Source: Bacteroidota bacterium
GTDB lineage: Bacteria > Bacteroidota > Bacteroidia > Bacteroidales > GCA-2711565
Length of the DNA: 64,000 nt
Direction: 5' to 3'
NCBI GenBank assembly: GCA_018816945.1
Contig: JAHIVC010000041.1
Location: 1-64,000, forward strand
The translations under genes and the position numbers were made by a program. Shown here piece by piece: positions 9,422 through 11,378 of the stretch (its first letter is position 1; the number at the start of each line of letters is the position of its first letter). A model generated the notes under the pieces. That model made no database searches. It had not been told where the DNA came from and saw nothing but the letters and a program-made list of their open reading frames with translations.

Positions 9422-9429
9422 AAATTTTA
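9422..9429. repeat. Target-site duplication, left copy
   Basis: AAATTTTA, directly outside the left terminal inverted repeat and identical to 11371-11378. An 8-bp duplication is what IS1595-family elements make. Confidence 0.88.
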
Positions 9430-9450
9430 CGGAATTATCGGTTATTTGGT
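9430..9450 (+). repeat. Left terminal inverted repeat of the IS
   Basis: CGGAATTATCGGTTATTTGGT, matching 19 of 21 bases of the inverted right end. It contains the stop codon (9442-9444) of the 89-residue passenger protein, so that reading frame ends inside the element terminus. Confidence 0.9.
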
Positions 9451-9711
9451 GAGGGAGAAATTTACTAGTTTTTCTGGTTCTAATCCTAATTGACCAAAAC
9501 AGCATAGCCCAATAATTGAAAAATAACCAACTACGAAATCATTACATTCTTCATATAAGCATTTATCATATAATTGATAAGAAATAAATAAAGCGATTGC
9601 AAGGAATAATATTTTGGTAGATATTTTAATAAAAACAAACCAAAATTTAGAAACTTCATATATTTCTCGTTTTGATTCCGATTTGATTATATATTCTTTA
9701 TTTTGTTCCAC
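9442..9711 (-). CDS. IS passenger: small membrane protein, unknown
   Basis: An 89-residue protein of no family I recognise. It has a charged N terminus (MEQNKEYIIKSESKREIYE), a hydrophobic segment about residues 24-47 (FVFIKISTKILFLAIALFIS), a short cysteine-bearing stretch (YDKCLYEECND) and a second hydrophobic segment about 59-74 (FVVGYFSIIGLCCFGQL). Its start overlaps the end of the upstream zinc-ribbon gene by 14 bp, suggesting translational coupling, and its stop lies within the left terminal repeat. It therefore moves with the IS. It may be a real cargo gene or a coincidental frame; the overlap and two-helix design favour real. Confidence 0.55.
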   Translation of the reverse strand: MEQNKEYIIKSESKREIYEVSKFWFVFIKISTKILFLAIALFISYQLYDKCLYEECNDFVVGYFSIIGLCCFGQLGLEPEKLVNFSLTK

Positions 9712-9931
9712 TCCAACTCAAGGTTACTTTGCAACTAGGGCATTCAGTTAATCCCTTTTCAATTTTATCAAAACCACAATTAGGACAAGAATAATAAACT
9801 TTTTTTTCTCCAAAAGTTTTTATTAGTTCAATTGTAAGCCATGCTCCACCTATAAGAGCAGCTGCGGTAAATAACTGATCTAACCAATTATTTTTTGCCA
9901 TTACTTCTTCTTTTGCTATAAAATTACACAT
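9698..9931 (-). CDS. IS passenger: membrane-anchored zinc-ribbon protein
   Basis: A 77-residue protein with a hydrophobic segment at about residues 19-40 (QLFTAAALIGGAWLTIELI) and a C-terminal zinc ribbon with two CxxC knuckles, YSCPNCGFDK and TECPSCKVTL. Such small zinc ribbons bind nucleic acid or protein, but the target is unknown. It begins 4 bp after the transposase stop codon on the same strand and overlaps the next small gene by 14 bp, so all three are probably one transcript. An internal ATG at 9901 (MAKNNW) is an alternative start that gives 67 residues. Confidence 0.65.
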   Translation of the reverse strand: MCNFIAKEEVMAKNNWLDQLFTAAALIGGAWLTIELIKTFGEKKVYYSCPNCGFDKIEKGLTECPSCKVTLSWSGTK

Positions 9932-9935
9932 AATT

Positions 9936-10904
9936 TCATTTATTTAACATACAATTTCTAACCAATGTTATAAACATATCATCTTCATTGCGATTGTTGT
10001 ATTTAAACACAAATTCGGCTATATATTTAGGCAAATATTCAAGGCTTACATGATGATACTGCCCTACTAATCCACGTTTGATAATAGACCAAAAACCCTC
10101 AATCGAATTAGTATTGATTCCTTTATAACTCCACATTTTCTGATGATCAATTTTAATGTGTTCAATGATATTATTCATTCGATGATAACCTTTATATTCA
10201 TCTGTAACCAAAATTGATTCGTCCATGTCAACGTGCTTTTTAACCATTGCTTTTAATTCGCTATGGGTTAACTGATTCATTACTTCAGCGATCACATTTC
10301 CATCTCTTTCAACTATTCCAGCCACAATAGGACGGTTTGCACCCCTGCCCCTTTTAGGTTTTACGGTTGGATATTTTTTCTTATACTTTGATTCCGAACA
10401 TCCAAAATCTTGTTTCAAGTCGTAAAGCTTTAAATCCAGATTTTCTTTTTCAGAAGATGAAAGCATCATTTTTGCATTTTTGCGAGGTTTGCCACCTAAA
10501 AATGTTTCATCCATTTCTACAACTCCATTTAACCTGATTGAGTTATTTTCGATTGTCATCAAATCCCTAAGTTTATGATACATTGTCCAAGCGGTTTCAT
10601 AATGTATGCCTAAGTTCCTTTCAAGCTGTTTTGCTGACATTCCTTTCTTTGCATCACTGATTAAAGCAATTGCATAGAGCCACATTTTTAAAGGTAACCT
10701 TGTATTATGTAAATGGGTGTTAACCGTTACTGAATATGTTTTTTCACATTCCTTACAATGATAACGGTGATCTTGATTCCTTGCTGACTTTTTAATAGAA
10801 TTACAATAAGGACAGCGTATTTTATTCCCCCAGCGTACTTTTTCAAAGTAATTGATTGCGCTTAATTCTGTTGGGAAATTATTCGTTATTTGGATTATGT
10901 TCAT
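9936..10904 (-). CDS. IS1595-family (ISXO2-like) transposase
   Basis: A 322-residue DDE transposase. The N-terminal zinc ribbon has CPYC (31-34) and CKEC (50-53). A helix-turn-helix-like region follows (KKGMSAKQLERNLGIHYETA). The catalytic core has Asp 132 (EMDETFLGG), Asp 235 (LVTDEYKGY) and Glu 269 (NTNSIEGFWSIIKRGL), with the NSIEGFW signature of ISXO2-like proteins. All catalytic residues are present and the frame is open from start to stop, so the enzyme should be active. It cuts and joins the ends of the element that encloses it (9430-11370). Confidence 0.95.
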   Translation of the reverse strand: MNIIQITNNFPTELSAINYFEKVRWGNKIRCPYCNSIKKSARNQDHRYHCKECEKTYSVTVNTHLHNTRLPLKMWLYAIALISDAKKGMSAKQLERNLGIHYETAWTMYHKLRDLMTIENNSIRLNGVVEMDETFLGGKPRKNAKMMLSSSEKENLDLKLYDLKQDFGCSESKYKKKYPTVKPKRGRGANRPIVAGIVERDGNVIAEVMNQLTHSELKAMVKKHVDMDESILVTDEYKGYHRMNNIIEHIKIDHQKMWSYKGINTNSIEGFWSIIKRGLVGQYHHVSLEYLPKYIAEFVFKYNNRNEDDMFITLVRNCMLNK

Positions 10905-11015
10905 AGCTATTTAATAATTATTTCTTTATCAAATAAAAACAATGTTATTTTAGAATTTTTATCTTTACCTGTTGATTTATAAAAACATGACATTAAAATA
11001 TAAGGATAACCAATA

Positions 11016-11348
11016 ATGGATACTATTAAGGAGATAATGAAAGAAAATGCTTTCGTTATAAGCATATATGCACTTTTAACAACACTTATAATTGTAATCA
11101 TTGCAGTTACTAATAATAAAAGAAAAAAATGGTTTATTGATTGGAAGAAAGACACTCTAAATTTATATGTTTTTAAAAGAGAATGGGAGCGCAATGATGA
11201 TAAATTTATGGAATTATTATTTTCTGAAAACGAGAAATTATCTGCTGAAAATAAAATTCTTAAGAAGGATATTAATAAAGTTTCTATTTTATTTTTAATT
11301 ATACTCATAGTTCCTATTATATATTCAAAATTTACAAAAAAGACTTAA
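11016..11348 (+). CDS. IS passenger: two-helix membrane protein with coiled coil
   Basis: A 110-residue protein of unknown function, divergent from the transposase and ending 2 bp before the right terminal repeat. It has a hydrophobic helix at about residues 12-33 (VISIYALLTTLIIVIIAVT), a basic and charged middle with a coiled-coil-like stretch (LLFSENEKLSAENKILKKDI), and a second hydrophobic helix at about 88-105 (VSILFLIILIVPIIYSKF). A second possible start at 11037 (MKEN) is preceded by AAGGAG at close spacing. A 133-codon frame on the opposite strand overlaps it; I judge the plus-strand frame the real one because it has ordinary protein composition. Confidence 0.5.
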   Translation: MDTIKEIMKENAFVISIYALLTTLIIVIIAVTNNKRKKWFIDWKKDTLNLYVFKREWERNDDKFMELLFSENEKLSAENKILKKDINKVSILFLIILIVPIIYSKFTKKT

Positions 11349-11349
11349 A

Positions 11350-11370
11350 ACCAATTACCCGATAATTCCG
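11350..11370 (-). repeat. Right terminal inverted repeat of the IS
   Basis: ACCAATTACCCGATAATTCCG, the inverted partner of 9430-9450 with two mismatches. Confidence 0.9.
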
Positions 11371-11378
11371 AAATTTTA
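11371..11378. repeat. Target-site duplication, right copy
   Basis: AAATTTTA, identical to 9422-9429 and directly outside the right inverted repeat. Confidence 0.88.

Follow-up and report, generated by a model that had tools for sequence, protein, structure and literature searches.

Insertion sequences of the IS1595 family usually have a single gene, that of the transposase (PMC8101967). A category of exception, the transporter IS (tIS), has passengers unrelated to transposition inside the IS ends and was described along with the IS1595 family by Siguier, Gagnevin and Chandler in 2009, as cited in PMC3129680 and PMC12888890. An example from another family is ISPa75 (IS66 family, tIS66), which carries fosZ, encoding a drug-resistance enzyme (PMC12888890). 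Small membrane proteins of a different setting are encoded by the lactococcal Sie genes, which lie between integrase and repressor; one of these systems, SieF7/2AB, consists of two proteins, a membrane protein and a zinc-motif protein, the latter metalloprotease-like (PMC7693887).

The stretch of DNA analysed here (the window) is 64,000 nucleotides of contig JAHIVC010000041.1, from a Bacteroidota bacterium. At positions 9430 to 11370 it contains a 1941-bp element, with its transposase on the minus strand, that we regard with high confidence as a tIS with true cargo. Like the IS1595 tIS, this element has a transposase with an N-terminal zinc ribbon, inverted ends, an 8-bp duplication and passengers unrelated to transposition (P0002, P0003 and P0004); unlike them, its cargo belongs to unnamed families. 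It departs from the usual single-gene content of IS1595 by three further genes, which is the known tIS exception, and since it agrees with the family in the other features compared, it belongs to a known category. The preliminary description of this DNA, which proposed an IS1595-like element with three passengers, stated that such elements are known and did not recognise the cargo, is supported both as to the bounds of the element and as to its category, the tIS being cited in PMC3129680 and PMC12888890. ISPa75 is comparable in that a captured passenger gene has moved with target duplications, but it differs in IS family (IS66) and in the nature of its cargo, a drug-resistance enzyme. What is new in the present case is the cargo families themselves, the placement of their homologues between integrase and repressor, and the constant, predicted membrane nature of the cargo in sister elements.

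Boundaries, target site and transposase

The status of 9430-11370 as a transposon is near certain, given its ends, its transposase and an empty site in a congener. The terminal inverted repeat adjoining the P0003/P0002 cargo pair (9430-9450, plus strand; CGGAATTATCGGTTATTTGGT) is identical at 19 of 21 positions to the reverse complement of its counterpart on the P0004 side (11350-11370, minus strand). Exact copies of the 8-bp target site duplication AAATTTTA lie immediately outside these ends, at 9422-9429 and 11371-11378. Terminal inverted repeats with an 8-bp target duplication are as found in the IS1595 family. When the flanks were Markov-shuffled, an exact 8-bp repeat beside ends matching at 17 or more of 21 positions occurred in none of 300 flank pairs; the terminal repeats and duplication reported earlier are thus borne out. 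The element is present as one copy in its own genome (a 4.1-Mb assembly in 108 contigs), where further copies had been sought. The empty target site, also sought, is present in the congener (G002), in which both flanking genes are collinear with those of the window and have no insert between them.

The transposase, P0001 (9936-10904, minus strand; 322 aa), has an N-terminal zinc ribbon and a DDE domain. Its frame is without internal stop, and it matches two IS1595 models, NF033547 of NCBIfam (3.9e-53) and PF12762 of Pfam (DDE_Tnp_IS1595; 4.2e-32), as well as the N-terminal zinc-ribbon domain PF12760 (9.2e-10), in each case above the cut-off. Residues D132, D235 and E269 are invariant in six relatives. 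With an open frame and IS1595 model matches well above the cut-offs, the transposase is intact, as first described, and the element presumably still has transposase activity.

Passenger genes and the loci of their homologues

P0002 (9442-9711, minus strand), a predicted small membrane protein, overlaps P0003 (9698-9931, minus strand) by 14 bp. P0003 combines a hydrophobic helix with a C-x2-C-x11-C-x2-C zinc ribbon, and the start of its homologue suggests that the gene probably begins at an internal ATG at 9901, giving 67 aa. P0004 (11016-11348, plus strand; 110 aa) is divergent from the transposase and has a charged middle part flanked by predicted transmembrane (TM) segments, one at either end. 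The coordinates, overlap and divergent third frame given in the preliminary description therefore stand; the start of the zinc-ribbon gene probably needs correction. Membrane topology of the passengers was predicted solely from hydropathy, which is strong for P0002 and P0004 and borderline for P0003; the helix of the P0003 homologue falls below the cut-off.

Among 379 genomes of the order, P0003 had one good homologue (genome G200, E 2.3e-14) and P0004 likewise one (genome G061, E 1.4e-17), so that the comparisons below have as their basis a single homologue for each cargo module. P0003 and its G200 homologue share the C-x2-C-x11-C-x2-C motif and a glycine-containing hydrophobic helix. The gene that immediately follows the P0003 homologue is homologous to P0002 (39% over 56 aa, E 1e-12 in a single comparison), and the overlapping window genes thus form a conserved pair in conserved order. 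P0004 and its G061 homologue are 40% identical over nearly the whole 110 aa, each with a predicted TM segment near either end. Because each passenger has homologues away from such IS ends, the three are real genes and genuine cargo, and the idea that they are chance frames is rejected.

Searches of genomes at the class level with the passengers returned nothing beyond weak zinc-ribbon matches. There were no matches for the passengers among plasmids, for P0003 and P0004 among phages, or for all three, used as alignments, among viral contigs. PADLOC and PHROG gave no family that would indicate a function for the cargo; known defence proteins were rejected as an identity for it, there being no trustworthy PADLOC match.

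At the G200 locus (L044), an XRE repressor-like gene and two small genes precede the homologues of P0003 and P0002, which stand in that order and are followed by an oppositely oriented tyrosine integrase. On the left side of the repressor are genes for a single-stranded DNA-binding protein (SSB), a 464-aa protein, an endolysin-like transglycosylase and a protein that resembles phage fibre proteins. The 464-aa protein has an HxHxH stretch (read by eye) that is suggestive of a rolling-circle initiator, and another protein is similar to gp34 of Salisaeta icosahedral phage 1 along a stretch of 86 residues. A provirus, possibly a temperate phage without a tail, is the best reading of this locus; the replication and capsid-candidate proteins encoded there had no match among phages and viral contigs. 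The provirus, on contig C27, spans L052:777-13350 together with L044:4163-6935. At the G061 locus (L045), a tyrosine integrase (in two frames) comes first, with zeta-like and Fic-like genes after it, then the P0004 homologue and, near the contig end, an XRE regulator. IS ends of the window type are absent around the homologues at both loci, and neither genome is among the matches listed for a transposase close to that of the window (E ≤ 1e-40).

From these positions, both cargo modules, found independently and at two unrelated loci, map between integrase and repressor. We judge the likelihood of two independent modules falling there by chance to be small, and the cargo is probably common to the lysogeny modules of integrated elements. 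Exchange of cargo between IS and proviruses may have occurred in either direction. The placement recalls that of Sie2009 and SieF7/2AB, which are small membrane proteins of the integrase-repressor interval; it is seen in the homologues and not in the window copies, which are on a transposon, and the likeness is one of analogy rather than of demonstrated sequence homology. As in SieF7/2AB, P0002 and P0003 appear to be a membrane protein and its zinc-motif partner, but with a four-cysteine ribbon as its zinc motif P0003 differs from the Sie partner, which is described as metalloprotease-like.

Membrane proteins are common, and integrase-repressor intervals also contain toxin-antitoxin and other genes, as illustrated by the zeta-like and Fic-like genes at the G061 locus. 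As an alternative, the cargo could stabilise the element as a toxin-antitoxin or similar addiction module, whose small hydrophobic proteins would damage the membrane when unbalanced. That two small genes overlap within one operon, that the P0004 homologue adjoins zeta and Fic genes and that such modules are frequent in lysogeny regions are all in keeping with this, but the element lacks an antitoxin-like DNA-binding partner, the zinc-ribbon protein P0003 is unlike known antitoxins and P0004 stands alone. We consider an addiction module unlikely.

Cargo of sister IS1595 elements

Transposases 51-65% identical to P0001 are found at L017, L030, L032/L031, L018 and L019 (L030 and L002 are apparently one contig), others being 33-38% identical. 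These close relatives have CGGA(A/C)TT ends in common. Exact 8-bp repeats flank the elements at L030, L032, L018 and L019; at L017 and L031 the ends match but no exact repeat adjoins them. A decayed relative at L020 has kept its ends and has a broken transposase.

In the close relatives, the region upstream of the transposase encodes a protein of 151-238 aa, different in each, for which TM segments are predicted. Its gene is co-directional with the transposase in L017, L018, L019 and L030 and divergent in L032, as in the window, and in several elements of the lineage it overlaps or nearly abuts the transposase start. The set is small (five relatives with intact transposases and the window element, six in total). 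No kinship of the sister cargo proteins with each other or with the cargo of the window is detectable, and the passengers of L030 and L032 had no match among phages and plasmids. The IS lineage swaps its cargo of predicted membrane proteins, which turns over from one sister element to another.

Relatives with the same ends and without the three window frames, which the preliminary description had named as evidence against its reading, do literally exist: the frames are absent from all five relatives with intact transposases. Each of these relatives has a different passenger, however, and the window frames recur in conserved form at loci that are not elements of this kind. A cargo peculiar to this IS lineage is rejected, as relatives with the same type of ends bear other genes and the homologues lie outside such ends. 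The further proposal that the passengers move with the element agrees with the exact ends and empty site of the window element and, in a relative, with two identical cargo-bearing copies: L031 and L032, both in the same genome, share 1822 bp without a difference, cargo included, which shows that there the cargo travels with the element. The second copy, at approximately L031:5079-6897, has flanks without an 8-bp direct repeat, unlike that at L032.

Larger and more distant IS1595 elements were observed in the genus of the window at L021:4058-7030 (2973 bp) and L022:3274-6923 (3650 bp). Both have GGTAA-type ends and 8-bp repeats; in both, the transposase is immediately followed by a P63C-domain gene, and the remaining cargo genes differ between the two. 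Cargo-bearing IS1595 elements are thus not rare in this group. Another element, at L034:2732-7085 (4354 bp), has perfect 20-bp ends, an exact 8-bp repeat, a transposase with a long basic C-terminal extension, and a cargo of an XRE regulator and several unnamed genes.

The sister elements bear on two other accounts of the cargo. If each IS of the lineage needed a membrane protein, for instance in membrane tethering or regulation of the transposase, the cargo would serve transposition; in keeping with this, one is predicted upstream of the transposase in all six intact elements, and in several it overlaps the transposase start or comes close to it. These proteins are, however, unrelated to each other, and homologues of the window cargo occur where such IS ends are absent and in genomes lacking a close transposase, which makes a role in transposition very improbable. 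The second account takes the cargo for neutral DNA that hitch-hikes after a chance acquisition, is heading to decay and has no function for element or host. A cargo that differs in every relative, belongs to rare families and sits in a single-copy element is as this account would have it; the consistently membrane-bound (predicted) cargo of sister elements is not. The passenger frames are open, are 33-46% identical to their homologues and retain their cysteines, from which we infer that the cargo has been under selection somewhere, and we think it improbable that it is neutral.

Proposed role of the cargo

The best explanation as a whole, to which we give about an even chance, is that the element is a tIS whose lysogeny-module cargo acts in phage exclusion. 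Its own DDE transposase would move the element by acting on CGGAATTA-type ends, making 8-bp duplications. The unrelated cargo between the ends comprises two modules of small proteins, mostly predicted membrane proteins: the P0003/P0002 pair and the single gene P0004. Both modules are probably shared with proviruses or comparable integrated elements, in the lysogeny interval between integrase and repressor. The cargo would act at the cell envelope and interfere with infection by other phages in a manner resembling superinfection exclusion, which would benefit the cell and hence the transposon. Phage exclusion as the function of the cargo is suggested tentatively, because of the analogy with the lactococcal Sie genes, and we place it somewhat below an even chance. 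Telling against it are the basis of one homologue per module, the lack of an informative PADLOC or PHROG family and of matches among phages, plasmids and viral contigs, the other kinds of gene present in such intervals, the commonness of membrane proteins, the small number of sister elements and the borderline hydropathy of the P0003 helix.

A broader reading, which we hold to be speculative and rather doubtful, is that this is an IS1595 lineage of Bacteroidetes specialised in carrying and swapping small membrane phage-exclusion genes, traded with the lysogeny modules of temperate phages, on a carrier of less than 2 kb. If the cargo does exclude phages, anti-phage genes would be able to move between proviruses and chromosomes on very short insertion sequences, and the slot adjoining such IS1595 transposases could be a place to look for exclusion proteins not yet known.
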